From the NCBI GenBank assembly GCA_022843805.1, contig JALHMY010000036.1, forward strand, positions 1 through 64,000: a stretch of DNA of 64,000 bases, written 5' to 3'. The notes under the pieces are model-generated. The model had not been told where the DNA came from and did no database searches. It saw nothing but the letters and a program-made list of their open reading frames with translations. The first letter of the stretch is position 1. Each line of letters opens with the position of its first letter. Shown one piece after another: positions 13,218 to 60,278 of this stretch. Origin of the DNA: Fuerstiella sp. GTDB lineage: Bacteria; Planctomycetota; Planctomycetia; Planctomycetales; Planctomycetaceae. The position numbers were made by a program, and so were the translations under genes.

Positions 13218-13233
13218 AACCGACCCTGACGGC

Positions 13234-16492: not shown

Positions 16493-16555
16493 GCCACCAT
16501 CTCCTGCCGGATCACATATCTGAATGACTGCAATGGCCACACCGGGAAGACTCGC

Positions 16556-16598: not shown

Positions 16599-16618
16599 GT
16601 CCATACATGATGACTTCA

Positions 16619-17683: not shown

Positions 17684-17712
17684 TGTTTTCTACTCCCATA
17701 ATCTCAGTTCAT

Positions 17713-17741
17713 AAAAGCCCCGCCCCGAGCAGTTCGGGGCG
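17713..17741 (-). terminator. Rho-independent terminator after the DegT aminotransferase gene
   Basis: On the minus strand, CGCCCCGA (17734-17741) pairs with TCGGGGCG (17721-17728), followed by GGGC and TTTT (17713-17716). It lies just beyond the stop at 17757. Confidence 0.65.
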
Positions 17742-17756
17742 AGGCACCAGGTCTTC

Positions 17757-18992: not shown

Positions 18993-19100
18993 TGGCTGTT
19001 CGCTCGCTTTCCTCAGTTAAATACCAGATCGCCTGAACTTTGCTCTTTACTGAGCGGCCCAAAACCAGGTCTTCAGGCTGAGACACTGACCTTACTTCTT

Positions 19101-21254: not shown

Positions 21255-23501
21255 TCACTGACCCGCGAATTCGGTTCTCCGGTCAGGATTGAAGGCCTGC
21301 TCAATGCGTTCTCTGACCCATCTGCGTACAGAATGACAGAAGTATTGTCCGACTGACTCTGATGGAAGACCAAATGAGACAGCGCCTCGCTCTCCGCAGC
21401 GCAGCCCAACAGCGTCCGCCTCTGACAATGAGATTACCCCGTCGAAACGATGTTCGGTCAGCAACAGTCCATGCGTTGTCCCAGGTTTCGCGTTTTCCGA
21501 CGGTATGACTTCAAGAGGGCCGCCACTGGCCGCGGACATTGCCGGGTGAACAAGTTTTCGAGTCGCGGCCGGGCTGATTCGCATCAACTGTCCGCGAATC
21601 GGGGTCCTCGTACCAACCCGCACGTTCAGGAAATCATTGTGACATCGCAGGGCAGTATCAAGCTCCTTCGCGCCAATCGATAGTCGAAACTCTTTTTGCT
21701 TCTCCGAACCAATCGTAAGGATCTCCTCTCCGGCTTCAATATACCTCCCGAGGATAAAGTTCAGCTGTCTGCCGATCACTTGTCCGGACACCTGTGCATA
21801 GATCGAGAGTTTTCCCTGCTGTGCTTCCGAATCCATCAACCTGATGCGAAGTGAAGCGAGTTTCGATCGAGCGATACTGATGGTGCCTGAATCATTTTCT
21901 CGAACCGCTTTTTGCAGCCGAATTTCTTCTTCACGGCAGATCTCATACAGGTTCAGATACTCCGTGACAATGTCAGGATTCTTCAGTTCAGCCAGCAGAT
22001 CACCTGCTCTGACAGTCTGTCCATCGCTGACATGGATGGCTGCCACGAAACCGGGGACTGCTGCACGAACAACTTCCGCACTGGAGTAATCCACGATTCC
22101 GGGAGCGGTAATCATGACAGGCGCTGGCGCTGCGAAAACCAGCAGGCCCGCCGAAGTTATCACGGTCGAAATCAGCAAAAGACCACGCACAAACTGAAGC
22201 CGAGAGTATTTCCAGACCTCCACGCAGCTTTTGCCAGTTGCGTACAATGGTCTTCCAATCCAGATAATGATCCCAACGATGGTCAGGGCAATTCCGGCTC
22301 CGTGATAGAATGCGGAGGCCGCAATCAGAATTGAACTGCAAACCAAACCTCGCCAGATCACTGTCAGAATGCCGTAAGTGAAAAGAATGTGATGTTGCAC
22401 ACCCGTCGCAGAGAGGCGGACGCTATTGCCTCCGATTATCCAGCGGCGCAACGTGTCGTTCACCGCCGTCATGGAATCACCCGATAAATTCGGAATGTTC
22501 AGCAGGTCGGAAAGCATGTAATACCCGTCAAATCGCATCAGTGGATTCAGGTTAAACAACATGGTGGACAAACTGGCCATGACAATCACGTTGTGGAGAA
22601 GGTGGGCATAGTTTGCAGAGTCGCACTGACACCAAACCACAGCCGCCACCGCTGCCGCAAGCAGTTCAACGTAAATCCCGGCAGCAGCCGTATGCAGTCG
22701 CTGTCCTCGTGAACGAAACGACCAGCATGATGTCGCATCGACCCAGGGCAGCGGCGCAAAAAATGCCAGCACAATTCCCATTCTTCTGACGCTGCCGCCA
22801 TAACGCACACAGACGAGCCCATGTGCTGTTTCGTGAAGTGCCTTCAGCCCAATCCAGGCAATAAACAACCACAACCAGTTGTTGGGTGAAAAGACTGTTT
22901 CAGAAGCCTTCCAAAACCTCGTCCAGTCATTGCGAATCATTATTCCGGCAGAAAGCATGAGCATCAGCCCGGCAACCGTGGCGGAAAAAGAAAACATCCA
23001 GCCCGTGTATGGCAGCATCGCTCTCAAAAAACGGTCAGGACTTGCGACAGGAATCATGATCCACAGCGGATTGAACGAACGGCTGCTGTCTGCTGACTGA
23101 GTGGCAACTGATAAAGATTTACAGACGTCCGTCCCCTGTGCTCCGGCATCAGCGATATTTGCCAGCTTCTTATCCAGCAGCCACGAGTAAACAATCAGAG
23201 CCTTTTCCTGACTTAATGCATCAGAGCCACTCACCTGCGCAGCAATTGCCAGTGCCTCAGCAAATGAAGTGTCTCCATTGAGAAGTGAAATAAAGGTATA
23301 TTCGGCGTATCCCACTCGATAGAACGCCGACGTACCCGGCACTTCGATATGATAAAATGTCTCTCTTCCATACTGTTGCGGAATGAATCGCAGGTCGGAT
23401 CGCAGCTTCATTCGCGTACGAGTCAGCTCAATCGTTGAATTGTCGATCGGACACTGCATTTCAACACCAGGACTGGGATCGAAGATAACACCAGGTTGCA
23501 A
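21255..23501 (-). CDS. PqqD-like / M50 metalloprotease / HlyD adaptor fusion (first copy)
   Basis: A 748-residue inner-membrane protein. Residues about 30-130 resemble the PqqD-like leader domain (RSDLRFIPQQYG, then a winged-helix-like segment). Residues about 155-460 are a polytopic M50/site-2-protease module with the zinc motif HETAHG (about 222-227) and a second ligand motif NPLMRFDGYY (about 317-326). Residues about 470-690 are an HlyD-type adaptor: a lipoyl-like half (VPGFVAAIHVSDGQTVRAGD), a coiled hairpin and the second lipoyl half (YAQVSGQVIG). The architecture matches proteins annotated as peptide zinc metalloprotease / efflux adaptors. It is third in an operon with a GAF-HlyD and an HlyD protein and paralogous to 54639-56837. 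The frame opens at a TTG; the ATG at 23459 is an alternative start. Confidence 0.8.
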   Translation of the reverse strand: MQPGVIFDPSPGVEMQCPIDNSTIELTRTRMKLRSDLRFIPQQYGRETFYHIEVPGTSAFYRVGYAEYTFISLLNGDTSFAEALAIAAQVSGSDALSQEKALIVYSWLLDKKLANIADAGAQGTDVCKSLSVATQSADSSRSFNPLWIMIPVASPDRFLRAMLPYTGWMFSFSATVAGLMLMLSAGIMIRNDWTRFWKASETVFSPNNWLWLFIAWIGLKALHETAHGLVCVRYGGSVRRMGIVLAFFAPLPWVDATSCWSFRSRGQRLHTAAAGIYVELLAAAVAAVVWCQCDSANYAHLLHNVIVMASLSTMLFNLNPLMRFDGYYMLSDLLNIPNLSGDSMTAVNDTLRRWIIGGNSVRLSATGVQHHILFTYGILTVIWRGLVCSSILIAASAFYHGAGIALTIVGIIIWIGRPLYATGKSCVEVWKYSRLQFVRGLLLISTVITSAGLLVFAAPAPVMITAPGIVDYSSAEVVRAAVPGFVAAIHVSDGQTVRAGDLLAELKNPDIVTEYLNLYEICREEEIRLQKAVRENDSGTISIARSKLASLRIRLMDSEAQQGKLSIYAQVSGQVIGRQLNFILGRYIEAGEEILTIGSEKQKEFRLSIGAKELDTALRCHNDFLNVRVGTRTPIRGQLMRISPAATRKLVHPAMSAASGGPLEVIPSENAKPGTTHGLLLTEHRFDGVISLSEADAVGLRCGERGAVSFGLPSESVGQYFCHSVRRWVRERIEQAFNPDRRTEFAGQ

Positions 23502-23570
23502 TTCGGAACTTTTACCGTTCAGGCCGGGATGTCCTGTTTCGCTGGTTCAGAGCAAACCCGAAATTTCAGA

Positions 23571-25559
23571 TCACCATCCCATCCAGCCCATCAGATGTGC
23601 GATCGGCTTGTGAAACAGATTCCAGCCCACCGAATGGCGATCTGACTCAATTCTGATCTGTGCTCGCATGCCGGGTCTCAGCTGCTGGCTCGGATTCATT
23701 AACTCAGCTTCTGCTACAAATACGTTTTCGTTATCTCGCAGCTCTGCGCGAGGATGAATTCTGCGAATCGTTGAATACAGAATCTGCTCGGGAGCAGAAT
23801 CCGGCTGCATGCTGATCACCATGCCCGGTCGGATGTGGCGAACTTCCACTTCCGGAACAGCGATTTCGACGCTCATGCGATCCAGCAGCGCCACCTCAAA
23901 GAGTGTCTGACCGGTTTTTAGTGGAACCCCCTCAGACTCCTTCAGGTCACCACTAACGACTATCCCATTGACGGGGCTGCGAATCTCCAGACTGAGGTCA
24001 CGATGCTGAAGCAATTCCGTACGATTCTGCAGACGCTGAATTTCATGCGCGGAAATTGCAGCACTGCCGAATTCATGAGTGCTCAATTGTGTATTCCGCT
24101 CTTTCATTGCCTTATGTAAATCGGCCTGTATGCCAGCAAGCTCCCATTGCACTTCCCGACCATCCATGACGGCCAGCAGCTGATCACTCTGAACCAGATC
24201 ACCCGGCTCCACCAGACTCTTCTGAAGCGGTCCGGAGAACGGTGCGGCGATGTAGCGACGCTCAACCGGCTGTAGCTCTCCCGAACAGTGAATTCTGTAA
24301 GGCATGGGCACAAACAGACAAAGTGCTGTCGAAATCCCGGTCAGCAGTATGGCCTTCAGCTTCTGCCTGCTGAAGATGCGTCTTATCTGAAGAAGCCGAA
24401 CGAGCCACTGCCCCTGCTGCAAACGCACAGTCAGGTCAAGACTTGCACTGATTGCAGGAGCTGCAGCATTCAGAAATCTGAGTGCTCTGACACGATTTCC
24501 TTCAGACTTCGCAGTGGCAACTCCGGATGAGGAGTCATGATCGCCGTCGCTGTCAAACTCGGCGAGAATGGCACCACACCAAAGACCAGTTGAAGTCAGC
24601 ATGGGAACTGTTACAAGTGTTTTGGTTTGTAAATGTGTTGCCAGTTGCTGATGTGCGAGCAGAGAATGACGATTCTGAAGAGATTGACAGGGCCAGATGG
24701 CACCGGCAGATCTGACCAGCGACTCAGTTAAAGCGGCTTCGATCAGTCGACATTGTTCCGTGCGGCTGTCGAACTGATCCTGCCCGGAGATTGCCATCAC
24801 CCGCAGATTTGCCCCACTGGAATCACAGAGTCCCACACATACACGAGATGCAGTAAGAATTTCCAGCAGAGAATCTGCCAGGCCGCGGCAGGCATCCCGC
24901 GCATTTCCTGCATGGCTGACCCGTCCGGTCAGTTCGATCATTGCGGCAACGTCATTTGCATCGTTCGCGGCTGCTGCCGCAGAACGGCTGATCAACCAGC
25001 ACTCGACCTGTGAAGCCGTCAGTTTCAACAACAACGCTGGGTGAGAATCGCCGGCGAGTGGCTCGCCTGATTCAATGATGGCGACCAGACACGCATGCTG
25101 CGGAGTTCCCGGGTACCATCCGGTTCTGAAAGGTACTGTCAGAATTTGCAATCGATCGCTGCCAGTAACCCTGCTGATCTGGTGTGACTTTTTCTCCGAT
25201 GCCTCTGCGGCCGTATCGAGAATCTGCTTTCGGACGGCGACTGAAATTCCGTCAGCCGGAGAAAAGAGGCCCCGCAGTTCCGCCTCCTGTCCAATTCGAT
25301 CCCCTGCAGGTGAATACCATGCGGCAAACACACAATTCAGATGACGGTGAATGTCAGCGCCCAGCGCTAGCTGCATTTCCGCAATCGTGGTGCTTTTCCC
25401 GATGGCGGACCAGAGTTCTGCACCGTCCTGCGTTTCAGACACTCGTGGTGCTGAATCCGACTCTTTTAAGGGACAGGCTTTCTCGCGCGAACGGGGTTCG
25501 AGCCACGGTGGGTACGAACCATGAAGTGAATTTTCTTCCGAAATCGCTGCATCGCTCAT
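23571..25559 (-). CDS. GAF-like sensor domain fused to HlyD adaptor (first copy)
   Basis: A 662-residue protein with one membrane span. Residues about 55-190 are less conserved; about 215-385 form a GAF-like domain (RDACRGLADSLLEILTASR, LVTVPMLTSTGLWCGAILAEF). A single transmembrane helix at about 398-420 (AILLTGISTALCLFVPMPY) is followed by an HlyD-type periplasmic part: first lipoyl half with FSGPLQKSLVEPGDLVQSDQ, a short coiled segment, second half SPVNGIVVSGDL, then a beta-barrel. A cytosolic GAF-type sensor on an export adaptor is unusual. It starts at ATG 25559, 14 bases after the HlyD gene, and is followed after 69 bases by the M50-HlyD gene. Paralog: 58024-59910. Ligand and cargo are unknown. 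Confidence 0.78.
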   Translation of the reverse strand: MSDAAISEENSLHGSYPPWLEPRSREKACPLKESDSAPRVSETQDGAELWSAIGKSTTIAEMQLALGADIHRHLNCVFAAWYSPAGDRIGQEAELRGLFSPADGISVAVRKQILDTAAEASEKKSHQISRVTGSDRLQILTVPFRTGWYPGTPQHACLVAIIESGEPLAGDSHPALLLKLTASQVECWLISRSAAAAANDANDVAAMIELTGRVSHAGNARDACRGLADSLLEILTASRVCVGLCDSSGANLRVMAISGQDQFDSRTEQCRLIEAALTESLVRSAGAIWPCQSLQNRHSLLAHQQLATHLQTKTLVTVPMLTSTGLWCGAILAEFDSDGDHDSSSGVATAKSEGNRVRALRFLNAAAPAISASLDLTVRLQQGQWLVRLLQIRRIFSRQKLKAILLTGISTALCLFVPMPYRIHCSGELQPVERRYIAAPFSGPLQKSLVEPGDLVQSDQLLAVMDGREVQWELAGIQADLHKAMKERNTQLSTHEFGSAAISAHEIQRLQNRTELLQHRDLSLEIRSPVNGIVVSGDLKESEGVPLKTGQTLFEVALLDRMSVEIAVPEVEVRHIRPGMVISMQPDSAPEQILYSTIRRIHPRAELRDNENVFVAEAELMNPSQQLRPGMRAQIRIESDRHSVGWNLFHKPIAHLMGWMGW

Positions 25560-25573
25560 GGTGTGAAACTTCG

Positions 25574-26518
25574 TCAGTTACGCTGAGCAATCGGGGAATC
25601 TGTCGATACTGGATCAGCCGGGCCTCGCCCCGGCACCAGGACAACACGCTCGCCGGCGTGCAATAGTCCGGATGGATTGGGCAAACGAACTTTAACACGC
25701 ACCGAGGTATTCGACGGATCAGCAACAGGAGATACAAACTCCACGAACCCCTCTGTGTCGCTTTGCTCCGCACCTAACCGCAATTGCACTCTCTGACCGT
25801 TGCGGAATGCGGTTCGCTGGGCAAGCGGCACCGAAAAAACGGCCAGAAGCGGATTGAGCTGGACCACCTTCAGCACAACCGGGTCCGAGGGCGAAACGAA
25901 TTCTCCAGGTTCCTTAAATATCTCGGACACGACTCCATCAATTGGAGACCGCAGCTGACGCTGCTCCAGCTGCGCCTCGATACGAAGGAACTCCAGTTCG
26001 CGGATGGCAAGATCTTCCCGAACAGTCTGTACACGAGCTTCTGCCACTGCCGATTCCATCAGATTTCGTTCGACTTCCCGCTGTGATGCATGATCACGTT
26101 CTCTCAGCTCCAGAAGCTTCTTTCTCTCGTTTTCCTTCAGTTCGTAGTCTGCGAGAGCCGACTTCAGCGGCCCCGTAACCGATTTACTCGAACGGGAAAC
26201 TTCCAATGCCGCTTTTAGTACCTGATTATCCAGGCGGGCCAGCAGACTTCCGGCCGTCACATGATCCCCCTCTCGAACTTCAACAACTGACAGAGTCCCC
26301 ATTTCGGATGCTGCTATGGCGAGGTCCCGGTAAGGTTCGGTAAAAGCCTCGATCTCGGAAGCGGGCTCAGGAAAAAGAACACCCGAGCCCGACTGAGTCG
26401 CAGATCCTGGTCCCGAACGGCGACTGGTTTGGGCTTCCACAGACAACAGTCCGGAGGAATAAACCAGCACGACGATCACAAAAGAAAGCAGCAGGGATTG
26501 AAACGCTGATAACCGCAT
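25574..26518 (-). CDS. Periplasmic adaptor (HlyD/MFP family), first export operon
   Basis: A 314-residue protein with an N-terminal signal or anchor (AFQSLLLSFVIVVLVYSSGLL, residues 5-25). The two half-lipoyl motifs are ASEMGTLSVVEVREGDHVTA and RSPIDGVVSEIFKEPGEFVS, joined by an alpha-helical hairpin at about residues 95-175, then a beta-barrel domain. It would bridge inner-membrane partners to an outer-membrane channel. I choose ATG 26518, since the frame's earlier TTG at 26542 would place eight odd residues (MCCCWNRV) before a normal signal sequence. It is first in a three-gene operon, preceded by the dyads at 26577-26603. Closest relative in the window: 56845-57999. Confidence 0.82.
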   Translation of the reverse strand: MRLSAFQSLLLSFVIVVLVYSSGLLSVEAQTSRRSGPGSATQSGSGVLFPEPASEIEAFTEPYRDLAIAASEMGTLSVVEVREGDHVTAGSLLARLDNQVLKAALEVSRSSKSVTGPLKSALADYELKENERKKLLELRERDHASQREVERNLMESAVAEARVQTVREDLAIRELEFLRIEAQLEQRQLRSPIDGVVSEIFKEPGEFVSPSDPVVLKVVQLNPLLAVFSVPLAQRTAFRNGQRVQLRLGAEQSDTEGFVEFVSPVADPSNTSVRVKVRLPNPSGLLHAGERVVLVPGRGPADPVSTDSPIAQRN

Positions 26519-26576
26519 TACCCGATTCCAACAACAGCACAAGCCGGACTTCCGATTGAATGACGTTGTAGTCAGA

Positions 26577-42393: not shown

Positions 42394-45300
42394 TTAATGA
42401 CGACGGTTCAGAATACGGCCCAGCATGACAGTTCCGCCGACTGATTTCGACGGCGGCGTCCTGACACGTGTGACAAGCAGCGAAGCAGCCAGCCCTGCAA
42501 ACGCCACTCGCTCCTGAGAAGTCGCCGAAAATGAGCCATCTGAAATTGCATCGCCGTCTGACTCAGTGTCTGAAACCGAATCGTCGGTTTCCGGAAAATC
42601 AGGCCCCCTGGTGCTTCCGTCTTCTGCTGCGTCTGACTTCTCAGTTTCTCTGCTTTCATTTTCCGGATTCGAGGAAAAACCGGTTGTCATACTCTGAATG
42701 GCGCCCTCGCCAGTCGGCTCGGAAATCGACGACTGGTCGGGAAGCTCCTCACCCTCGCCCTCTTCCAGTGGCATCGGTTCGAGCCTCAGTTCCGGGAAGA
42801 TATCCGGAATGCCTTCCGCAGACGGGAATGGCTGTTCATTGGAAACATCAAACTTCAGCACCGGACGCTCGACTGTTACACGTCCACCCGTCTTGTTGAC
42901 TTTTTCCGTAATCAGCCACAACTCATAGCCCAAACCATCCTGGAAATGCTTTTCGGCTACCCATTGTTTCAACCTGCGTGGCTGCAGAAGAAGCTCACCA
43001 AAATCGTCGTCAATGTGTTCGTATCCCGCTTCAACTCGCCGAGTCACACCGTCAAATCTTCGCAGCTGAAAGTAGTCCTGAGACTGCGTTGAGTAGGAAC
43101 TGTTGGGAAATTCTGCCGGCTCAGCAGCGGCGACCAGAACGGGAAGAGGAACAGGTGGCTGGGCAACAGCAACGGGCACCGGCAACGGACTGGGTGTTTC
43201 CGGATTGGGTTCAATCGGTGGAAGGAACAGCGTTGGAATCAGAACCTCAACCCGCCCGCCTTCAAAATGAAAATCGGCGTTCGACAGAACATCGTCGACG
43301 ACAGTCGCGACGGTCCGGTCAACTCCGGGAGGACTTGGTGGAAATGGTCCTTCTGTCCCGGTCGAAGTATCGTCTGAAGATGTCACCAGCTGCTGGTCCG
43401 GCGGTATGGGAACATTGATTGCACCGCCCTGATCCACAATTCCGGCAAAGATCTGAATCGATTGATGATGTGATACGCTGAAATCCACCTGGAAGATCGG
43501 GTTTCCGGCAGCAACAAAAGCCTGCAGGTCAAAGAAGGAGTAAGTATGCGAGACCGATTGAACCCCACCGTTTCGAAAAATTGATTCGATTCGCTCGCCG
43601 TTCAGGTCGCCTGGCCCCAGATCCGGGTCTCGCCAGTCAATATCCAGACGAAGATTCTCTTCCCCCACCATCCCAATGGTGGTGGTAAAGGTGATTTCAA
43701 AGTGGATTCCAACAGGAATCACGACGGCCCCAATTATCAGAGCGGAAGGAGGAAGAAACGCACTTCCGAACACATTCTGCTCCGGACGGGGAGCAAATCT
43801 CTGTGCGACCCCGCCATCAGTTCGAATCGAAATAAGGTTGCCGAATGTGATACGGCCGTTACCGCCGTCCGCCGTGATCAGAACAGAGTCCCCGGCAGCA
43901 CCCGCATCGCTGACGCCCTGGGGAGTGTCATCTGTAGAGATAATGGATCCGCTTCCAATGAGAATATCGCCGCCAGCCACGAGAGAAATCGTTTCTCCGC
44001 TCAGTGCAGCCAGATCGGCGGTGCCGTCGGCGTCCGTTGCCCTCAGAGTGCCACCGTTTGTCACCGTACCGATCGAAATATCCTGAGTCGACGTGATTGA
44101 AATCAGATTTCCGGTGGTGATCAGATCTTCGACCGTGATATTTCCCCCGTTTATTCCTGTCGATGTCATTGTGATGGTGCCCGAACCGGCATTGATCACT
44201 GCGCCATCAAGCATCAGGATGATGTTGCCGTCGTTACCCACACCATCCAGACGATTGGCCGTCACAACAACGTTGCCCGCACCATTTGCTGTGATATCGC
44301 CGTTCGTCGCAAAGCCAATACTGTCATCCGCCGTGATCGTGATGCCGCCTTCTTCTGTAATGACGGGAGCAAATACTACAACATCACTGTCAGGACCGAT
44401 CGCATCCAGCAGTATCGTGGCATCGGCATTATTGCTGTCGTTTCTGACAGTTCCCGCAATACTGATATCACCGCTGAGCGACCGCAACAGGATATCAGCG
44501 TTTCCCGAAGTTGCAGTTGAATCGTCAATGGCGACCCCCAGCCCGATGACGGAAATATCGCCGCCAGCCACGAGGGAAATGCTGTCATCCTGCCCCTGAA
44601 GCAATTGCTGTACCTGAATTCCGTCAGTTTCAATAATCTCAAGTGTGCCGGAAGTCGAATTCGCCGCGTCAATTGTGGTAACGGTGGTTTCAAGCGCGTT
44701 TCCGCTGCCGATACCGGTTACAGCCTGCAGAGTTGTCAGTCCGGCGACCAGATCGACATTCACATCTCCACCGTCAGTGATCGCCCCCCCTGCTGACAGC
44801 GACACGTCGCGGGTGCCATTGTTGATCGTGTCCAGCGCCACACTGTCCGTTTCAGCGATTCGAACCGCCTGAGTTGCAGTATTGACGACATTCAAAGTCG
44901 TTACCGTCGTCTCAATGGCGTCCGTTTCCCCAATGCCGTTCACAGCCTGGAGGGTCAGCAGCCCTGCAACCACATCGACAAGAACGTCGCCGCCGTCAGT
45001 GACCGCACTACCTGCAGACAAAAATACGTCACGGGTATCGTTGTTAACGGTATCCAGAGCAACGCTGTCTGTTTCCACGATCCGAATCGTTCCGGACGAC
45101 GAATTGACGGCATTCAGAGCGGTGACTGTCGTTTCGATCGCGTTACCGTCGCCAATACCAGTCACTGCCGCAAGAGTTGCCAGTCGGGCAACAACGTCGA
45201 CATTGACGTCACCGCCGTCCGTAATGGCTGCATTCGCCGAAAGGAACACATCGCGGCTGCCATTGTTAATCGTATCAAGCGCCACGCTGTCAGTCTCGCT

Positions 45301-48300
45301 GAGCCGAATCACGTTTGTCGCGGTGTTAACCACATTCAGAGTGGTCACTGTGATTTCCAGGGCATCCGCATCACCAATGCCGCTGGCCGCCTGCAATGTC
45401 GCCAAACCGGCGATGATATCAGTATTGACGTCTCCACCATCTGTGATGGCATCGCCAGCAGTCAGAAAGACATCCCGGGTGGCGTTATTGATCGTGTCCA
45501 GAGCGACACTGTCTGTTTCCACAATGCGAATGGTATTGGCTGTTGTGTTCACCGCATTCAGAGTTGTAACCGTCGTTTCAATGGCATTCGCATCACCAAT
45601 ACCATTCACAGACAGCAGAGTCGCCAGTCCGGCAACAACGTCGACGCGTACATCGCCGCCATCGGTGATGGCATCGCCAACTGCCAGGAACACATCCCGG
45701 GTGCCGTTATTGACGGTGTCCAGCGCCACGCTGTCCGTTTCCACAATCTGAATGCCGTTTGATGTCAGATTGAATACCACCAGAGTGGTCACGGTCGTTT
45801 CAATGGCATTCGCATCACCAATACCATTAAACGCAATCAGTGTCGCTGTTCCAGCCACCACATCAACATTGACATCACCGCCATCAGTGATCGCATCACC
45901 TGCAAACAGCAGCACATCGCGGGAAGCATTGTCGATCGTATCCAGAGCGACACTGTCAGTCTCATTAATCCTGATGGTGTTAGCGATGGTGTTGACCGCA
46001 GTCAGGGTCGTCACCGTGGTTTCAATGGAATCTGAATCGCCAATACCGTTTCGTGCCGCAAGTGTTGCCAGTCCGGCAACGACGTCAACATTCGCATCAC
46101 CGCCATCGGTGATCGCATCGCCCGCTGACAGGAATACTTCGCGAGTCCCGTTGTCAATCGTATCAAGAGCAACGACGTCGGTTTCGTTAATCCGAATCGC
46201 GCCCGTTGTGTTGTTAACAGCGTTCAGAGTAGTAACAGCGGTTTCGATCGCGTTGGTGTCACCGATTCCCGTGGCTGCCACCAGTGTGGCCAGGCCGGCA
46301 ACCACATCAACATTACCATCCCCACCGTCGGTTATCGCTCCGCTCGCGGTAAGAAAGATATCCCGGGTCCCGTTGTTGATAGTGTCTAGCGCTACGCTGT
46401 CGGTTTCATTAATGCGAACAGCATTGAAAGCGGTATTCGTGACGCTCAGCAGAGTAACAGTCGTTTCAATGGCATCTGCGGCACCAATACCAAACGCAGC
46501 CTGCAGAGTTGCCAGACCGGCAACGACGTCAATATTCGCGTCGCCGCCGTCAAGAATCGCAAATGTCGCTGTCAGGGCGATCTCGCGAGTCCCATTGTTG
46601 ATTGTGTCGAGTGCCACACTGTCCGACTCAACAATTCGGATAGTACCGGACGCTGTATTGACGACATTCAGCGATGCCACTGTGGTTTCAATGGCATTAG
46701 CGTCGCCAATGCCGTTTGCCGCCTGAAGAGTTGCCAGGCCGGCAACCACGTCGACATTTCCATCTCCACCGTCAGTGATCGCATCCGTCGCCGTCAGGAA
46801 TACATTACGTCCGGAGTTGTTGATCGTGTCCAGCGCCACGCTGTCCGTCTCGGCAATCCGAACAATACCGGATGTTGTATTGACCACATTCAAAGTCGTG
46901 ACAGTGGTTTCGATCGCGTCCGCATCACCAATACCGCTGGCCGCCTGCAGCGCAGCCAGACCGGCAACTACGTCGATATTCGTGTCTCCTCCATCAGTGA
47001 TTGCACCGCCGGCTGTCAGGAATACATCACGAATGCCATTGTTGACGGTATCCAGGCCCACGTCGTCGGTTTCAGCAATTCGAATGGTATTTGCGGTGGT
47101 GTTGACCACATTCAGAGTCGTAACCGTGGTTTCAATCGCATTGACATCACCAATTCCGTTTGCCGCCTGCAGTGTGGCGAGCCCCGCAACCACATCGATA
47201 CGGGCATCGCCACCATCGGTAATTGAATCCGTCGCGGTCAGGAAAACATCTCGAGTGGCATTGTTAAGCGTGTCCAGCGCGACACTGTTTAGTTCTGAAA
47301 TGCGTATCGTGCCCGACACTGTGTTGATCGCATTCAGAGTGGCAATGTTAACTTCAATCTGATTCAGATCGCCGATTCCTGTGTCTGCCCGGAGCGTGGT
47401 CAGGGCACCCGCGAAATCAGCAACAATATCCACATCGGTGTCACCGCCATCCACAATGGCTCCGCTGACACTGGTTATGCGTACTGCCAGTGCTCCTGCA
47501 TTTGTTGTCTGAACCGAACTCAAAGTCAGGTCTTCATCGGACGACAGGGTCACTTCGGCTTCACTCAGCAGAAAGGCGGTTGCTCCCAGCGAAATGACGG
47601 ACGGCGAGGCAACTCCGTTGGTGCCCGGCACATAGCTCACCAGGTCATTTCTTCCCGCAACAATTCGGCTGCCGTCAGCCATTGTCAGTAAACCACCGGA
47701 TCCGTTTGCATCACCGTTGAAGTCAGCAATCACAAGGATGTCGCCACTGACCGTTGTAATCACGGCAAGATTGTCAGCATCCGGAGTCAGGTCACCATCA
47801 ATATCCACCGGATCGAGATTACCGTCGTTGTCGATATCATCCAGGTCGCCCGCAACGACTTCGATCCGAATATCGTTGTTTGCCACAATTAAAATCAAGT
47901 CATTATCCGCGAGGACCGTATCCTGGATGATCACATCCCCTGACACGCCGAGAGCTGCCAGTACCACATTACCAGTGCTGGTTTCAAGACCATCGTTGCC
48001 AGCGATCACATCATCTCGGACTGTAAGTGTCCCACCGCCCAGAATGAGACTGATGTCGCCCGCACTGCTGGTGGTCTGCAGAGCCACGTTGTCACAGTTG
48101 ACATCGACAAGATCAACGCTTCTGTCGCTGTTGACCGTCAGATCTCCAAATGCCGTGGCGTCCAGTGTCAGAGTCGGTACTGTCACCGGGTCAGAAGTTG
48201 TCACATTGATGTCCGCATCTGCCCCGGACACAAAAAGAATTCGTCGGGCGCTCAGATCGATCGTTGCGTCAGATGCAACGATACTGGCTCCCTGAAGCCG

Positions 48301-51300
48301 CAGGTCGCCGACTACAGCCAGTGACGGCCCCAGAGTCAGTACGCCGGTTCCATTGTTGTCGGCATCGGCGATCAGCCCCAGGTTGGTGAAGCTGAAGACC
48401 TGTCCTGAAACATCAAGATCTCCATTCGACTGCAGAAATCCGGTTGTCGCATTCAGCGTGGTCGTTCCGCCGATGGTGCCTTCAAAGGCCACCGCATCCG
48501 TCGCATTGGCTGTCAGGTCGTTTGTCAGCAGGACTTCAATCGGATCAAAATCACCCTTGAACACATCCGCGCTGGTGCTGCCAATGCTGCCGCCGACGGC
48601 ATCCAGAGTGGCATTGTTTGCCGAAATATTAACGGCGCCCGCATTGCCGTCAGTCATTGAGCCATCTTCTGTCGAGATAAAGACATCTCGCAAAAGGTTA
48701 CTCACCGCGCCCAGAATCAGATCCCCGCCTGCCACAACTTCGGTGATTTCAATATTGCCCGCAAGAGTATTGGTGGCCTCGATCCGGCCGATGTTTGTTT
48801 CAAGGGCATTTCCGGATCCAATGCCGTTCGTGGCGAAGAGCACAACAGTGCCGGCAGTCAGGTTCACCGCTGCCGCGTTGCCGTCAGTGATCGCACCGCT
48901 TTCGGCTACTATCGTCACATCTCGATTGCCGTTACTGACGGAGCCCAGGGCAATGTTGCCGCCCACCGTGAGTTCAGTGACATTAATGATCCCACTGGTT
49001 GTATTGCTCGCAATCAGCGTCCCTATCGCCGTGTCGATGTCGCCGGCACCCGCTGCACCCACCCCCTGAGCTGCGTTCAGAGTGGCGGAGCCGGACGTGA
49101 CGAGCAGCGCGTCTTCCAGCGCTGTGTTATCCAAAACTGATCCGGTTCCATTGCTGTCACTGTCGGCGACAACAATCAGATTTCCAGACGTGCTTGTCAG
49201 CAGGCTGAGAGCCACACTTACTGCCGCAGAATAGGTGATAATTCCGGAGCCGGTTGCAGCCGACGTCCCGTCAGACATCGTAATGCTGCCGTCGTCCGCC
49301 GCAACGCTGATCGTTCCGGTTCCGGCCGTACTGATATTGACATTCTGCAGCACGACATCGCCTTGCAGGACGAGATCACCCAGAGAGGAGCTGACACCTG
49401 CCGCCAGGCTGAGGGTTCCGGCACCTGCAATCAGAGTTACGTCGCCTGAACCATTCGCTGTCACAATACTGTTGACCGTCAGGTTACCGGCAGTCGCCAG
49501 GACGCTGATATTGCCGGATCCAGCAATAGTCTGAATGCCGACGCCACCAATGATCAGACCATTGGTCTCCTGAATAAAAAAATCACCGGTTGTGGAATTC
49601 TGTGCGTCTATGGTGACAATCGTCGTGTCTATGTCAGCAGCACCAGACCCGCCAATGCCAGTCGCTGCACGAAGTGAAACCAGTGCACCGCCGGTCACAA
49701 TGTTCGACGCCTCTCCGACCGTGTTATCAGAAATCGCGCCGGATCCGTTCACGTCGCTGTCCGCCGTGACAACGACATTGCCGCTGGTGCTGGACAGAAC
49801 ACTGAGCGCCACATCGGTCCGAGCAGTATAGGTGATGAGTCCGGTATTTGTCGTGGTCGCTGACCCGTCACCCATCGTAATGCTGCCGGTATCAGCCGTT
49901 ACCGTTACCGTTCCAGCGCCTCCCGACGATATGTCGCCATCCTGATCGACAGCATCGGCTGTAATCAGTATGTCTCCAGTGCCTGAACTCACCGTGTCCT
50001 GTGTTGTTATGTTGCCAGCATCCGCATTCAAAGTGACAAGGCCTGAGCCGTCAGCTGTAACGACGGAATTCACTGTCAATGATCCGGCGTTCACATCAAT
50101 GTTAATCGAGCCATTGCCTCCCAGCGTACGGACACCTGTTCCATCGATCACAAGGCCGCTGGTTTCCTCAATGAAGATGCCGCCGGAAGTTGAGTTTGTT
50201 GCGACGAGGTTTCCGATTGTCGTATCAATGTCGGCAGCCGCAGCCGCACCGATACCCTCGGCAGCACTCAATGTCACCTGACCGGTCGTCACAAGGTTGG
50301 CATTTTCGAGGACGGTTAGGTCCAGTATCGCACCAGTGCCGTCGGTATTGCTGTCGGCCGTTACTGACATGTTTCCATTCGTGCTTCTCAGGAGACTGAG
50401 AGCGATGTTAACCGTTGCCGCATACGCGATAAGGCCAGCTGCTGCTGTCGTGACTGTTCCGTCAACCATCGCGATACTTCCGCTGCTGGCGGTCACACTG
50501 ATCGTTCCCGCGCCAGCAGTGGTGATGTTCGCACTCTGAGCAACATCCGTACCTTCAATTTCAATATTACCAGTCACGGAACTCACCAGGTCATCGATCG
50601 TGGTGGTGCCAGCATCGGCAATCAGTGTGACGCTGCCTGAACCGTCAGCAGCGACAGCCGCGTCAATCGCCAGCGTTCCGGCGGCCGCAATAATGCTGAT
50701 TTCGCCGTTTCCACCCAGTGTCTGCACACCGGTCAGATCAATAGTCAGGCCGTTCGATTCCAGGACAAAAATATTTCCCGTCGTCGAGTTGACAGCTTCC
50801 AGGCGGCCAATGGTCGTGTTGATATCAGCAGGACCCGTGTCGCCGATCCCGGCCCCGGCAGACAATGAAGCCCGCCCCGTTGTTACGATATTGGCGGTTT
50901 CTGCTACAGTCTCGTCCGAGATTGCTCCTGTCCCGTTCGTATCACTGTCGGCTGTCACGAAAATATTACCACTTGTACTGGTCAGCAGAATCAGGGCTGC
51001 ATCCAGCGTCGCCGAGTACGTGATACTGCCCGTGTTTGTCGTCGTGGTTGCCGTACCCGTCATCGTGATACTGCCATTGTCAGCCACCACCGAGACCGCG
51101 CCGGCTCCCGCCGTTGTGATATTCGCATTCTGGGTTACGGAATCTCCGGTGATACTGATATCACCTGTCCCTGACAGGACATTGTCTCCCAGAGTGACCG
51201 CTCCGGCAGCCGCATCCAGTAGGACATTTCCTGAACCATTTGCAGACACAAGGCCGGTTGTTTCCAGATCGCCGGCAAGCACAGAAATATCAACGATCCC

Positions 51301-52497
51301 GTTGCCGGCAAGCGTTCGAGCGCCGGACAATGTGAGACCGCTGGATTCTATAATATTGATATCTCCGGATACGTCATTTCGAGCATCCAGAAGCGTGAGA
51401 CTTGTTTCCAGTGCGTCCGCACTGCCAATGCCGGTGCGGGCAATCAGGATCGCGTTGTTTGCGGAAATATTGGTAACGCCCGCGTTCCCGTCTGTGATCG
51501 CTCCCTGAGCCGTCATCAGCACGTTGCCGGTTGTTGAAATCGTGCGATTGATATTGATCGTCAGCGCTTCAATATCCAGAGCACCGGAGTCAAGATCCGT
51601 ATCCGCTGTTTCAAATGTAACGACGTTATCCGGAGTCGCGTCATCTTCAGCAAGAATCAGGTCTGCATCAAAATCGGCATCAAGTCCCTGCACAGAAATC
51701 GACTTGACTCCGGTTCCGTCGTTGATGGTAAGGGTTGACGTCGGATTTACGAAAGTGGTTGTTTCGAACGCTCCGGAGATCTGCGATACATTGGCCACCG
51801 CACCGGTATCGTCACTCAGCACAACAGTTGGGTCAGCACCAGCCGGAAGATTAATGATCAGATCGTCAGCAGTACCGTCCAGCGCCAGTGGTTCGATCTC
51901 ATCAAATTCAACAGTTCCGAGCCCGGCAAATTCAATCTGGCCGTTTTCCGCCCCCTCGTGTGTCAGTTCCAACGTTGTCACGTCGTACCCGGTGATCGCC
52001 AGCGAATCATTGTCGCCGGCTCCCTCGCCACCCACAAATCGAATGCCACCCGTCGGAATAAAATCGACGCCGGACAAGTCGAGAATCACCTGCTGAGTGG
52101 CCGCATCATCTCCATTGATTTCAAGAACATCTCCAGCTGAAAGCGGATCACCGCCATCATTCAGCAAACTGGCAGCAATCGTCAGAACAGTGTTTCCAGC
52201 ACTCAATTCAAACTCATCTGCATTGAACGCGCCGGGAGGTGTACCCCATGTCCCGGAGCTCAGAGTCAAACTCACCGACTGTACATTTGCACCGCCGCCG
52301 AGATCCTGGAGCCCGCCGTCGGAAATTGTGAGAGTTTCACTGCCAGTCAGGGCAATTCCCTGAAGTCCAATCGTTCCGTTCAAAACGCGACGATCTTCGA
52401 GATGAACAAGCCTCAAAAGTCGTTTACGCTTTACCGCTGCCGACTTCCGCACTGAGAAAAGGCGACGAATCTCCTGCATGAATCGCGATGTCGACAT
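42394..52497 (-). CDS. Giant secreted repeat protein (filamentous adhesin-like) with LEDRRVL N-terminal signature
   Basis: A 3,367-residue protein. Residues 11-40 hold a basic stretch and HLEDRRVLN (32-40), the conserved signature at the start of many large planctomycete surface proteins. The next 2,700 residues are beta-rich, Gly/Asp/Thr-rich repeats of the kind seen in filamentous haemagglutinin-like beta-helices: four units of 198 residues and twelve of 74 residues (see separate entries). The C-terminal 550 residues differ: a domain with IHFEITFTTTIGMVG, a Pro-rich linker (PVPVAVAQPPVPLPV), a further domain (YEHIDDDFGELL), an acidic linker, and a final hydrophobic segment VAFAGLAASLLVTRV followed by a short basic tail (RILNRRH), like a sorting or anchoring signal. 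ATG 52497 is preferred; the frame also has a TTG at 52590. A TTGACA box lies on this strand at 52655-52660. Confidence 0.88.
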   Translation of the reverse strand: MSTSRFMQEIRRLFSVRKSAAVKRKRLLRLVHLEDRRVLNGTIGLQGIALTGSETLTISDGGLQDLGGGANVQSVSLTLSSGTWGTPPGAFNADEFELSAGNTVLTIAASLLNDGGDPLSAGDVLEINGDDAATQQVILDLSGVDFIPTGGIRFVGGEGAGDNDSLAITGYDVTTLELTHEGAENGQIEFAGLGTVEFDEIEPLALDGTADDLIINLPAGADPTVVLSDDTGAVANVSQISGAFETTTFVNPTSTLTINDGTGVKSISVQGLDADFDADLILAEDDATPDNVVTFETADTDLDSGALDIEALTININRTISTTGNVLMTAQGAITDGNAGVTNISANNAILIARTGIGSADALETSLTLLDARNDVSGDINIIESSGLTLSGARTLAGNGIVDISVLAGDLETTGLVSANGSGNVLLDAAAGAVTLGDNVLSGTGDISITGDSVTQNANITTAGAGAVSVVADNGSITMTGTATTTTNTGSITYSATLDAALILLTSTSGNIFVTADSDTNGTGAISDETVAETANIVTTGRASLSAGAGIGDTGPADINTTIGRLEAVNSTTGNIFVLESNGLTIDLTGVQTLGGNGEISIIAAAGTLAIDAAVAADGSGSVTLIADAGTTTIDDLVSSVTGNIEIEGTDVAQSANITTAGAGTISVTASSGSIAMVDGTVTTAAAGLIAYAATVNIALSLLRSTNGNMSVTADSNTDGTGAILDLTVLENANLVTTGQVTLSAAEGIGAAAAADIDTTIGNLVATNSTSGGIFIEETSGLVIDGTGVRTLGGNGSINIDVNAGSLTVNSVVTADGSGLVTLNADAGNITTQDTVSSGTGDILITADAVDQDGDISSGGAGTVTVTADTGSITMGDGSATTTNTGLITYTARTDVALSVLSSTSGNVVVTADSDVNGSGAISDNTVGEASNIVTGGALVSLRAATGIGGSGAADIDTTIVTIDAQNSTTGDFFIQETNGLIIGGVGIQTIAGSGNISVLATAGNLTVNSIVTANGSGDVTLIAGAGTLSLAAGVSSSLGDLVLQGDVVLQNVNISTAGTGTISVAADDGSITMSDGTSAATGSGIITYSAAVSVALSLLTSTSGNLIVVADSDSNGTGSVLDNTALEDALLVTSGSATLNAAQGVGAAGAGDIDTAIGTLIASNTTSGIINVTELTVGGNIALGSVSNGNRDVTIVAESGAITDGNAAAVNLTAGTVVLFATNGIGSGNALETNIGRIEATNTLAGNIEITEVVAGGDLILGAVSNLLRDVFISTEDGSMTDGNAGAVNISANNATLDAVGGSIGSTSADVFKGDFDPIEVLLTNDLTANATDAVAFEGTIGGTTTLNATTGFLQSNGDLDVSGQVFSFTNLGLIADADNNGTGVLTLGPSLAVVGDLRLQGASIVASDATIDLSARRILFVSGADADINVTTSDPVTVPTLTLDATAFGDLTVNSDRSVDLVDVNCDNVALQTTSSAGDISLILGGGTLTVRDDVIAGNDGLETSTGNVVLAALGVSGDVIIQDTVLADNDLILIVANNDIRIEVVAGDLDDIDNDGNLDPVDIDGDLTPDADNLAVITTVSGDILVIADFNGDANGSGGLLTMADGSRIVAGRNDLVSYVPGTNGVASPSVISLGATAFLLSEAEVTLSSDEDLTLSSVQTTNAGALAVRITSVSGAIVDGGDTDVDIVADFAGALTTLRADTGIGDLNQIEVNIATLNAINTVSGTIRISELNSVALDTLNNATRDVFLTATDSITDGGDARIDVVAGLATLQAANGIGDVNAIETTVTTLNVVNTTANTIRIAETDDVGLDTVNNGIRDVFLTAGGAITDGGDTNIDVVAGLAALQAASGIGDADAIETTVTTLNVVNTTSGIVRIAETDSVALDTINNSGRNVFLTATDAITDGGDGNVDVVAGLATLQAANGIGDANAIETTVASLNVVNTASGTIRIVESDSVALDTINNGTREIALTATFAILDGGDANIDVVAGLATLQAAFGIGAADAIETTVTLLSVTNTAFNAVRINETDSVALDTINNGTRDIFLTASGAITDGGDGNVDVVAGLATLVAATGIGDTNAIETAVTTLNAVNNTTGAIRINETDVVALDTIDNGTREVFLSAGDAITDGGDANVDVVAGLATLAARNGIGDSDSIETTVTTLTAVNTIANTIRINETDSVALDTIDNASRDVLLFAGDAITDGGDVNVDVVAGTATLIAFNGIGDANAIETTVTTLVVFNLTSNGIQIVETDSVALDTVNNGTRDVFLAVGDAITDGGDVRVDVVAGLATLLSVNGIGDANAIETTVTTLNAVNTTANTIRIVETDSVALDTINNATRDVFLTAGDAITDGGDVNTDIIAGLATLQAASGIGDADALEITVTTLNVVNTATNVIRLSETDSVALDTINNGSRDVFLSANAAITDGGDVNVDVVARLATLAAVTGIGDGNAIETTVTALNAVNSSSGTIRIVETDSVALDTVNNDTRDVFLSAGSAVTDGGDVLVDVVAGLLTLQAVNGIGETDAIETTVTTLNVVNTATQAVRIAETDSVALDTINNGTRDVSLSAGGAITDGGDVNVDLVAGLTTLQAVTGIGSGNALETTVTTIDAANSTSGTLEIIETDGIQVQQLLQGQDDSISLVAGGDISVIGLGVAIDDSTATSGNADILLRSLSGDISIAGTVRNDSNNADATILLDAIGPDSDVVVFAPVITEEGGITITADDSIGFATNGDITANGAGNVVVTANRLDGVGNDGNIILMLDGAVINAGSGTITMTSTGINGGNITVEDLITTGNLISITSTQDISIGTVTNGGTLRATDADGTADLAALSGETISLVAGGDILIGSGSIISTDDTPQGVSDAGAAGDSVLITADGGNGRITFGNLISIRTDGGVAQRFAPRPEQNVFGSAFLPPSALIIGAVVIPVGIHFEITFTTTIGMVGEENLRLDIDWRDPDLGPGDLNGERIESIFRNGGVQSVSHTYSFFDLQAFVAAGNPIFQVDFSVSHHQSIQIFAGIVDQGGAINVPIPPDQQLVTSSDDTSTGTEGPFPPSPPGVDRTVATVVDDVLSNADFHFEGGRVEVLIPTLFLPPIEPNPETPSPLPVPVAVAQPPVPLPVLVAAAEPAEFPNSSYSTQSQDYFQLRRFDGVTRRVEAGYEHIDDDFGELLLQPRRLKQWVAEKHFQDGLGYELWLITEKVNKTGGRVTVERPVLKFDVSNEQPFPSAEGIPDIFPELRLEPMPLEEGEGEELPDQSSISEPTGEGAIQSMTTGFSSNPENESRETEKSDAAEDGSTRGPDFPETDDSVSDTESDGDAISDGSFSATSQERVAFAGLAASLLVTRVRTPPSKSVGGTVMLGRILNRRH
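44533..47196 (-). repeat. Twelve tandem 222-bp units inside the giant gene (74-residue repeat)
   Basis: Unit starts are spaced exactly 222 bases (47196, 46974, 46752 and so on to 44754). The protein unit begins DVVAGLATLQA, continues GIGDANAIETTVTTLN, then ETDSVALDTINNGTRDVFL and ends AITDGGD. The last unit keeps only its first half. Divergence between units is modest and in frame throughout, so the array arose by duplication and has stayed under coding selection. Extra, more divergent half-units flank it on the N-terminal side. Confidence 0.9.
48970..51237 (-). repeat. Four tandem ~594-bp units inside the giant gene (198-residue repeat)
   Basis: Anchor GSG codons are at 51237, 50643, 50049 and 49452, spacing 594, 594 and 597 bases. 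The unit contains GDISITGDSVTQNANITTAG, SLLTSTSGN, VTADSDTNGTGAI and ADINTTIG, then SNGLTID and GGNG. The third carries one extra residue, and the fourth degrades near its end. The repeat is unrelated in length to the 74-residue array but shares the GIG and N-x-T-S-G motifs with it, suggesting a common ancestor. Confidence 0.85.
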
Positions 52498-52851
52498 CCC
52501 CTGGGACTCCACAAGCTGAAAATCCAAATGGCTCCGTCCATCCAAATGCGCAAAATTAGCGCCCAGATGACAATTGTAAATTCGGAGCAAATGGGTCGGA
52601 TAGATAAATCAGACAGCATTTAACGCTGGCAACTCTTAAAATCACTTTCGAAATTGTCAAGATATGCGGATTCTTCCACCTGGGTGAATTGGCATTAGCT
52701 TTGACGCATCCTAACCAGGACTTCCCGCGGGTTAGCGTGCAAATATCGGTTTCGCTGAAAATCCTGCCACGTTTACGACGAAACCTCGATAAGCATCTTT
52801 CTCTCATTGCAGAGACGCGACACGGATTGGTTTCATTGCGGGGTATCCCAC

Positions 52852-54638: not shown

Positions 54639-56837
54639 TCACAGCCCGGATGAGAACGTGCGACGAATGGTACGCCATGCACGTCGAGCCAGTGACATCG
54701 GTGCACATTCCACTCTTGCGTAGCCGGTGGTGTACAAAGGCAGATTCTGGTGAGACGAACCGGAAAGCGGCTGCACATAGACCCCGAAGAAGGGGGTGAC
54801 GGGAGCCAGTGTTTCGGCATTCTTCACGGCAATCATCTGATTGACGACGAATTCCCGCTCGACTGCAAGTTTTGGAACAACATCAATTCGATCCACCCGA
54901 CCATCAACAGGCTCTCCTGGCCAGGAGTTGAGTGTCAGCTTCACGGGTGTGCCCGGTTTAACGAATTCAATATCGTATTCAGAGACGAGGCACACAGCAC
55001 GATGATCCTGTTCAGCGCCCACCCAGCATAACAGAGTCTGCTCGGCGATCCATGCGGACTGATTGCGGGCATCAAGAGCATATCCGAACCACGACGTCTC
55101 AAGTCGCTTTGATCCTTTGGGCGACGCAACATTCCGATCGGGAAAAACTGTCCCTGCCGATGGGCTCAAAACCGTCAGGCCTTCATTCTGAGACCGCAGT
55201 GTTTCGAGGCGTTTCCGGTGCATTTCCACGGTTTTGGCTGCGGTCGGCAGAAGACTGGCTGACTGCTGGCCTCCGTACTGCAAACTGGCCAGAGCGGCCA
55301 GACGTTTCTCCGCGGTGCGAAGTTCTCCCTCCACGGTCGCGATGGACAATGCGATCTCGGGATTCGTCAGAGCTGCAATGACTGTGCCAGCCTCCACGTT
55401 CGAGCCGGGTTGCACATGCGGAACGATGAAGCCTGAAGCACCTGCAAACACAGGTCGGCATACGCCGGGAGTCACAACAAACGGCGCGTTCACATGATGA
55501 GGAAACGGAGTCATCAGCAGGATACCAGCGACCATAGTGGTTACAAGAATTCCTGCGAGTGCACGACGCTGCGCCGATGCGTCTCCCTCCAGACTGTTCC
55601 ATCGCGACCGGAGAGTTCGAACGGATGCCATCAGAAATGCTCCACCCGTGCTTACAGCCATCAGCACGGCAATTGATTCAAAGCCCCAGGGCCTGAGCAC
55701 GCCATGAATAAACCACAACAGCGCTCCAGCCATCAGTATGCGATAAAAAAAGGAAAGAAAACCGAACAGCGTCATTGCGATCTGACCAGAAACGGACCAG
55801 GGACGCCCGACTGCGGATGGCAGTCCGAGTATGACGCGATCCAGGAGAGCTCCCGCTGCCATTCGGGCCTCGGCGAAGAGGTTCGGAATATTCAGCCAGT
55901 CGGACAGGACATAATATCCGTCATAGCGAAGCAGCGGATTCCCATTGACAATCAGCGTATTGAACGAGCAGACCAGCATCACATTCAAAAAGAACGTGTG
56001 CAGCGTGCCGGGGTGACTCGTCATCCACAGCACGCCGGCGATCGACGCGACGATCAGTTCCACAATAATTCCGGCCGCAGAGACCAGCATTCGTTTTCGG
56101 CGATCCTGCTGAAGCCATGAATCAGAGACATCACAATACAGAAGAGGAAGAAAACCAACAACCAGCAGACCCAGTTCATGACATTCGCCGCCAAAATGAT
56201 GACAGGTCAGTGCATGTCCAAATTCATGCAGGATCTTGACAGACACGATGGCAACGAACAGCACGGGCACGTTGTCCACCGTAAACAGACTGGCCAGTCC
56301 TGGCAGTTCCTGAAAAAGTACCGGGTGCCGGGAAAGGACCAGAAATGCTACCACCACCACAAAACAACTGGCCAGGATCATCCAGAACCTGGTGTAGATC
56401 CATCCGACAGCCCGATCCAGAAGTCCAAGTATTCCAGCGGGATCAATCCCCCGAATTCGAAACGAGAGTCGCGAAAAGAGATGTAAAGGATTCCATCCGG
56501 CCTGACGGTGCCACGCCTGAGCCAGCAGACTGCCATGGCCAGGCACACAGGATTGCAGCAGCCCACCTCTGATGGAAGACAGAAGGAACTGATGCAGGTT
56601 AAACACAGAAAATTCGGAACCTGGAAAGCTCTCCTGAAGCTGCCACAGCGCTCGATTCATCGACAGTCGGCCGTCCAGCGAAGAGAGAAACGCCATCTCC
56701 TCGGCATTGACATGAAAATACGTCAGACGAAGCGGGTCTTTGATGGTCCAGCCGGAATCCGCGTGCAGGTCCGCCCGATGGATCTCCAGATCGCGGCGCA
56801 GTCTCCACCTGATTGAAGGATCATCCTGAGCGTCCAT
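54639..56837 (-). CDS. PqqD-like / M50 metalloprotease / HlyD adaptor fusion (second copy)
   Basis: A 732-residue paralog of 21255-23501. The leader has RRDLEIHRADLHADSG; a polytopic M50 module carries HEFGHA (about 203-208) and NPLLRYDGYYVLSD (about 297-310). The C-terminal part has the adaptor signature VPHVQPGSNVEAGTVIAALT with a coiled hairpin (RTAEKRLAALASLQ) and ends in a beta-barrel. The zinc-binding motif is the canonical HExxH, so peptidase activity is possible. It is the third gene of the operon, seven bases after the HlyD adaptor gene, and its stop faces the secreted-protein gene. ATG 56837 fits. Confidence 0.82.
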   Translation of the reverse strand: MDAQDDPSIRWRLRRDLEIHRADLHADSGWTIKDPLRLTYFHVNAEEMAFLSSLDGRLSMNRALWQLQESFPGSEFSVFNLHQFLLSSIRGGLLQSCVPGHGSLLAQAWHRQAGWNPLHLFSRLSFRIRGIDPAGILGLLDRAVGWIYTRFWMILASCFVVVVAFLVLSRHPVLFQELPGLASLFTVDNVPVLFVAIVSVKILHEFGHALTCHHFGGECHELGLLVVGFLPLLYCDVSDSWLQQDRRKRMLVSAAGIIVELIVASIAGVLWMTSHPGTLHTFFLNVMLVCSFNTLIVNGNPLLRYDGYYVLSDWLNIPNLFAEARMAAGALLDRVILGLPSAVGRPWSVSGQIAMTLFGFLSFFYRILMAGALLWFIHGVLRPWGFESIAVLMAVSTGGAFLMASVRTLRSRWNSLEGDASAQRRALAGILVTTMVAGILLMTPFPHHVNAPFVVTPGVCRPVFAGASGFIVPHVQPGSNVEAGTVIAALTNPEIALSIATVEGELRTAEKRLAALASLQYGGQQSASLLPTAAKTVEMHRKRLETLRSQNEGLTVLSPSAGTVFPDRNVASPKGSKRLETSWFGYALDARNQSAWIAEQTLLCWVGAEQDHRAVCLVSEYDIEFVKPGTPVKLTLNSWPGEPVDGRVDRIDVVPKLAVEREFVVNQMIAVKNAETLAPVTPFFGVYVQPLSGSSHQNLPLYTTGYARVECAPMSLARRAWRTIRRTFSSGL

Positions 56838-59910: not shown

Positions 59911-60278
59911 GGACCGTTGTTCTGAAGCACGAATTCGGTGGAGGCGGTTTGAATCAGGCAGTCTATCGCAACGCCGTCAGGGATGCGACACAGGTTCACC
60001 GATTCACAACCAGTCCTCGTGCTGCTCATCATTCAAATCAACTGCACTCCGGCAGTTCGTGCCGCTGCGTGCCCTCAGACCCGAAAGCTTTTCTCTGTGT
60101 AACGGACAGGCAGTTTGCAAAACGACTTCGGGTGGTACATTTGCTGAAATCCGGAACGACGGGTGCCGATCTAGGAAGAGGGGGGGACACGGGCTGCGCA
60201 AAAGATATGGTGTCCACATCCCGTGAACACATGATGTACTCACGAACGTTCCCGCCCGGTGAAGCTGGATGGACCGAC
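59911..60278. other. Divergent promoter region between GAF-HlyD and TolC genes
   Basis: 368 bases. The TolC frame is open backwards through all of it and even into the GAF-HlyD gene, but the translation there is Arg/His/Cys-rich and unlike a protein. I take it as non-coding and the place of two divergent promoters. No strong consensus is visible. Confidence 0.5.

Follow-up and report, generated by a model that had tools for sequence, protein, structure and literature searches.

Accessory Sec systems of the SecA2 type use a second SecA-type ATPase for special, often large, surface proteins, and the secondary SecAs considered here are likewise second SecA-type ATPases, though without the SW domain; an accessory SecY did not catch the eye in an unsystematic look at the loci. 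The closest described relative of our locus is the secondary SecA_DEAD and type I secretion-related locus of Kamneva, Poudel and Ward (2015, PMC4452313), the biological role of which was given as "completely unknown" and to which no substrate was assigned; SecA was unlinked to the locus in some cases, and neither PqqD nor giant proteins are mentioned in that study. The locus comprises M50-HlyD, GAF-HlyD and HlyD proteins, often an OEP protein, and a SecA without the wing-scaffold domain, and occurs in the same phyla as the loci analysed here; it is reported from Methylobacterium extorquens AM1 (META1p2399-2402; PMC4452313), among others. Like the type I secretion system (HlyB-HlyD-TolC), these loci have HlyD-type adaptors, a TolC conduit and a proposed cargo without a cleavable Sec signal, but they differ from it in having no ABC transporter, a SecA-like ATPase and a protease fused to an adaptor, and the putative signal is an N-terminal motif as opposed to the C-terminal signal of type I substrates. 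For this secretion system no substrate has been named since 2015, and for the LEPR motif, which looks like a sorting tag, no sorting machinery; each of the two orphans can now be tested as the partner of the other. We propose, with a probability of roughly 0.6, that one such locus, operon B, supplies the envelope components of a secretion system dedicated to giant proteins, driven by SecA and with exit through a dedicated TolC.

In the window, i.e. the whole stretch of 64,000 nucleotides that was analysed, the gene set is present twice (Table 1). Operon B consists of three co-directional ORFs with gaps of 14 and 69 bp, in the order HlyD, GAF-HlyD, M50-HlyD, while in operon A the order is GAF-HlyD, HlyD, M50-HlyD with gaps of 24 and 7 bp. 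Operon B is a member of the described but uncharacterised locus type (PMC4452313): it carries an M50 core fused to HlyD, a GAF part fused to HlyD and an HlyD/biotin-lipoyl adaptor. An earlier note on this DNA had placed the set at 21255-26518 and its recurrence at 54.6-59.9 kb, with the same difference in gene order, and both operons were seen as ORFs at 26542-21255 and 59910-54639. The HlyD gene of operon B is read from a TTG start, the coordinate of the earlier note being an internal ATG at 26518, and its product has a hydrophobic stretch at the N-terminus. As had been claimed, the hairpin of this adaptor is the shorter one (322 aa against 384 aa in operon A, with the extra sequence in the hairpin region). 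The HlyD domains of all six proteins are backed by Pfam. The polysaccharide cluster reported beside operon B was confirmed by Pfam at 10391-20960, 294 bp away; it is headed by a DUF3473 polysaccharide deacetylase fused to a family 2 glycosyltransferase (19101-20960, minus strand). No RNA family or tRNA was found in the window.

Table 1. Genes of the two operons, the neighbouring TolC gene and the proposed cargo gene, with positions in the window.
Feature	Position	Strand	Details
Operon B HlyD adaptor	25574..26542	-	First gene; HlyD_3 2.9e-18, HlyD_D23 1.5e-16; TIGR01730 above cut-off
Operon B GAF-HlyD (tandem GAF, transmembrane helix, HlyD)	23571..25559	-	HlyD_D23 4.5e-17; AF2 model
Operon B M50-HlyD (PqqD-like domain, M50 core, HlyD)	21255..23501	-	HETAH at residue 223, NPLMRFDG at 319
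Operon A GAF-HlyD	58024..59910	-	First gene; HlyD_3 7.8e-8; aligned with operon B protein
Operon A HlyD adaptor, longer hairpin	56845..57999	-	HlyD_3 1e-16; alignment
Operon A PqqD-M50-HlyD	54639..56837	-	HEFGH, NPLLRYDG; M50 4.1e-4; tree
TolC-family outer membrane protein, divergent from operon A	60273..62516	+	OEP 1.2e-18; one of nine OEP proteins of the genome
3398-aa protein with N-terminal LEDRRVL (LEPR-like), proposed cargo	42394..52590	-	Custom LEPR profile E 8.9e-5

Identity between the partners of operons A and B amounts to 27% for M50, 24% for GAF and 29% for HlyD. The M50 proteins have three parts, namely a PqqD-like domain at the N-terminus (about 95 residues), a membrane core that carries HExxH and NPxxRxDG, and an HlyD adaptor domain; HExxH and NPLxRxDG are found in the M50 proteins of both operons. 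Pfam PqqD was matched in 11 of 38 M50 homologues (best 5.8e-8), and in a PDB search with the N-terminal profile PqqD entries ranked first and second of eight matches (E 0.0098 for 3g2b, and 0.099). In the AF2 model of the operon B protein (pLDDT 86.9) the N-terminal domain is built of strands followed by helices at a pLDDT of about 85-94; a fold search with this model returned adaptor domains and was uninformative on the PqqD and protease parts. PqqD is the founding member of the leader-peptide-binding RRE fold (RRE-Finder, PMC7470986), and the recognition of a PqqD-like receptor domain in the M50 protein is new in this analysis. The ligands of the M50 site (both histidines, the glutamate and the aspartate; HExxH...D) are invariant in 123 of 123 homologues, which makes it very likely that proteolysis by these proteins is under selection. 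The GAF label given earlier to the second protein is correct, even though Pfam GAF has no match in the operon B sequence itself: 22 of 41 homologues match Pfam GAF, and the AF2 model (pLDDT 88.7) has two tandem GAF folds, a helix at 398-415 and an adaptor domain. This model resembles the GAF pair of PDE5A (VIA Z 18.3, rmsd 10.4 over 304 residues) and MacA (VIA Z 19).

The earlier note took the set for a unit that duplicates and reshuffles, and proposed trees of each protein as a check. Trees of 123 M50, 100 GAF and 104 HlyD proteins (quick method, LG+G4) agree in placing operon B nearest to L023, L025 and L026, which are loci of planctomycete MAGs with the order HlyD-GAF-M50, in a supported group, and operon A nearest to L173 and L176 of the window genome's own family, with the order GAF-HlyD-M50. 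Patristic distances also correlate between the partners (rho 0.81 for M50-GAF, 0.65 for M50-HlyD). Since the three trees agree on neighbours and the distances correlate, the three genes travel as a unit, and the partners do share one history. Operons A and B belong to deeply separated clades, and the relatives of each in other genomes share its gene order, so the difference in order is old and a property of the lineages; a recent local duplication was rejected on the same trees. Inheritance as a set is thus borne out, and duplication or reshuffling at this place is not. By their phylogeny, operons A and B are old, separately inherited copies of one presumptive secretion gene set. Among complete loci HlyD-GAF-M50 is the commonest order, alone or with SecA on either side, and GAF-HlyD-M50 is rarer.

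No OEP/TolC gene adjoins operon B in the window, as had been noted; the further suggestion that the operon shares the TolC at 60.3 kb does not hold. That TolC is not the only one in the genome (G000; 9.2 Mb, 172 contigs), in which nine OEP proteins were found, and the OEP protein of contig 27 is the orthologue of the TolC of B-type operons (E 1.8e-180, against only 1.2e-10 for the window TolC). Sharing of a TolC between the operons was rejected on these grounds; operon B seems, judging from orthology, to have its own TolC, unlinked on contig 27. Complete B-type operons of other genomes (L028, L032) run TolC-SecA-HlyD-GAF-M50. A secondary SecA is likewise absent from the window, and two SecAs lacking SecA_SW are encoded elsewhere in the genome. 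In the SecA tree the one on contig 56 groups with the B-type SecAs, mirroring the operon tree, and the one on contig 4 with the SecAs of other operons of the window's class. Both have SecA_DEAD, the domain for preprotein cross-linking and a portion of the P-loop domain; SecA_SW is missing, unlike in the main SecA. Given the TolC on contig 27 and the SecA on contig 56, the parts of operon B therefore seem to be dispersed, and it is probably not short of an ATPase. The dispersed TolC and SecA are new in this analysis; compared with the locus of Kamneva et al., SecA and TolC are unlinked in this genome and the M50 gene is present in three copies. Fewer than two SecA matches were obtained in 12 of 57 M50-positive genomes, including the single-contig G024, the per-genome counts being noisy because split SecA genes were counted twice. 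One locus (L043, 4752-14566) has two secondary SecA genes flanking HlyD-GAF-M50.

Long proteins flanking the loci have a basic stretch at the start and then LExRxLL, the LEPR-8K/LEPR-XLL motif (NF012209). According to genome tables transcribed manually, 30 of 246 Planctomycetota have both the M50 protein and LEPR-8K, 3 LEPR only, 27 M50 only and 186 neither (p 1.6e-19), i.e. the M50 protein occurs in 30 of 33 LEPR-8K-positive genomes compared with 27 of 213 others. The co-occurrence holds when the class of the window's genome is left out (p 1.5e-16) and when families are the units counted (p 1.5e-8). In other phyla (Pseudomonadota, Verrucomicrobiota, Thermodesulfobacteriota, Lentisphaerota and Bacteroidota), LEPR proteins above the cut-off, many of 2000-9800 aa, were found in 22 of 29 M50-positive genomes. 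The genes also lie close together: 11 of 93 LEPR genes are within 5 kb of an M50 gene (0.62 expected) in a set obtained with a profile partly trained on M50-gene neighbours, and with the independent NF012209 model 9 of 111 are within 15 kb (1.24 expected, p 6e-6). The distribution of LEPR giants is patchy, with a focus on some families, as is that of the M50 set, and the two could be joint marks of certain large-genome or particle-associated lineages without a functional tie. We consider this improbable, if the best placed of the alternatives, as the signal persists when only mixed-state families are considered (12 of 13, p 1e-4), and the genes are physical neighbours in phyla that are separate from each other. 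The LEPR proteins are thus quite probably the cargo of the system, as their co-occurrence and adjacency suggest, and the assignment of a cargo to the M50/GAF/HlyD/SecA locus is new in this analysis; no literature linking LEPR-XLL, PqqD with M50 and HlyD, or DUF4347 to the locus was found in a search that did not cover bioRxiv.

The motif lies within the first 100 aa in 49 of 403 long ORFs, some of them chosen for having it, versus 2-6 of 403 in later bins. A hydrophobic stretch before the motif is missing in 53 of 56 LEPR N-termini, hence an ordinary Sec signal is missing, and such a stretch is present in 97 of 128 HlyD proteins. Ig, cadherin, DUF4347 or CshA repeats, as in surface adhesins, occur in some of the LEPR proteins. 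No LEPR-8K match above the cut-off was found in 27 of 57 M50-positive Planctomycetota genomes and in 7 of 29 in the other phyla; the sensitivity of a short motif, which gives weak E-values for single proteins, and incomplete MAGs may account for some of these. G165 and G225 are contrary cases, with LEPR-like matches, yet only HlyD-domain matches to the M50 profile; full searches of these two, G164, G044 and four more genomes for the M50 protein gave almost only HlyD-domain matches. Among 14 control genomes, Deinobacterium chartae was the sole one with LEPR-8K above the cut-off.

No LEPR gene stands beside operon B itself, the nearest being the giant beside operon A (2279 bp from the M50 gene of that operon); B-type operons with an LEPR gene upstream are L029 and L032. 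The window giant differs from LEPR-8K in its LEDRRVL: it does not reach the curated cut-off of 17 for NF012209, with no match in its first 333 residues, and was seen only with the wider profile built here, so it was rejected as a strict member of that family. No Pfam domain was found in its 3398 aa. Two proteins of the genome do exceed the NF012209 cut-off (ORFs of 10229 and 5276 aa). On contigs 3 and 18 (L202, L203), ORFs of 12364 aa, found with our LEPR profile, and of 10229 aa have LEPR-type N-termini with no M50 gene on the contig, and are candidate cargo. The window giant is separated from operon A by a 567-aa protein without a Pfam match (52807-54510, plus strand) and adjoined on its other side by a protein kinase of 1971 aa with many WD40 repeats (36187-42102, minus strand).

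In the proposed mechanism, the giant protein would be made with a basic N-terminus followed by an LEPR-XLL-type motif in place of a Sec signal peptide. On the cytoplasmic side, this LEPR segment would be bound as a leader by the PqqD-like domain of the M50 protein, and the secondary SecA-like ATPase of contig 56, which keeps the preprotein-binding domain and has no wing-scaffold domain, would push the unfolded chain. The three HlyD-bearing proteins would form a periplasmic conduit to the dedicated TolC of contig 27, the leader would be cut by the M50 site, and the tandem GAF domains would sense a cytoplasmic ligand or gate assembly. Least secure among these steps are the passage through the membrane, for which canonical SecYEG or the M50 bundle could serve, and the role of GAF. 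Export and cleavage by the set are predictions from comparative evidence; a drive by SecA is somewhat favoured, and reading and cutting of the LEPR segment by the PqqD/M50 part is a more tentative idea. Equally tentative is the wider proposition of a distinct pathway that occurs from Planctomycetota to Rhizobiales and does without ABC transporters: LEPR-marked giant surface proteins would be recognised, cut and exported via TolC by a SecA-like motor together with a PqqD-M50-HlyD receptor protease. If the locus and the LEPR motif do belong together, many of the largest bacterial proteins would gain an export route without a Sec signal peptide or an ABC transporter, and a PqqD-type leader-binding domain would be used beyond peptide natural products.

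The earlier note, pointing to the neighbours of operon B, suggested a different cargo, and the set could indeed act as a tripartite exporter for the glycan cluster, with polysaccharide or small molecules as its cargo. Genes of this cluster (epimerase, deacetylases, DegT, GT2) begin 294 bp downstream of operon B on the same strand, a DegT aminotransferase is also found near the B-type relative L026, and the adaptor domains resemble MacA/EmrA/MexA. However, proximity alone speaks for such a cargo at operon B, the comparative evidence pointing to giant LEPR proteins; ABC-ATPase-like ORFs were found within 6 kb in only 2 of 121 loci (motif scan), no RND or MFS transporter was noticed in an unsystematic look, and the ATPase that travels with the set is SecA, a polypeptide motor. 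We therefore regard a polysaccharide exporter as unlikely. It is just as unlikely that the set is of the RiPP type, maturing and exporting a small precursor peptide that the PqqD-M50 protein processes, as happens with daptides or YydH/LiaK, although the PqqD-like N-terminus would fit and, in NCBIfam, the protease part is closest to daptide_HExxH (E 5.7e-48) and LiaK. Unlike those proteases, the M50 proteins are fused to HlyD and stand in another gene context, their scores for the daptide HExxH model (NF041824), 163.9 and 141.5 bits, are far under the curated cut-off of 300, and three HlyD adaptors with SecA and TolC suit a large polypeptide better. A signalling module, in which GAF sensing and site-2 proteolysis control the envelope and the HlyD parts are structural, would explain the tandem GAF and the conserved M50 site, and a regulatory role of the GAF protein was also proposed by Kamneva et al. 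(PMC4452313), but three adaptors, TolC and SecA in one locus point to transport and leave this reading with very little probability.

The third M50-HlyD copy of the window's genome, on contig 19 (L010, 8246-11863), has an HlyD gene beside it and no same-strand GAF gene; a transposase-like ORF lies at 6216-8045 of the same locus. This two-gene form of M50-HlyD and HlyD is common in relatives of the window genome's family. On contig 23 of G071, a 739-aa ORF (67996-68445) aligns with the M50 profile over the N-terminal, PqqD-like part alone and is possibly a decayed or variant M50 copy.
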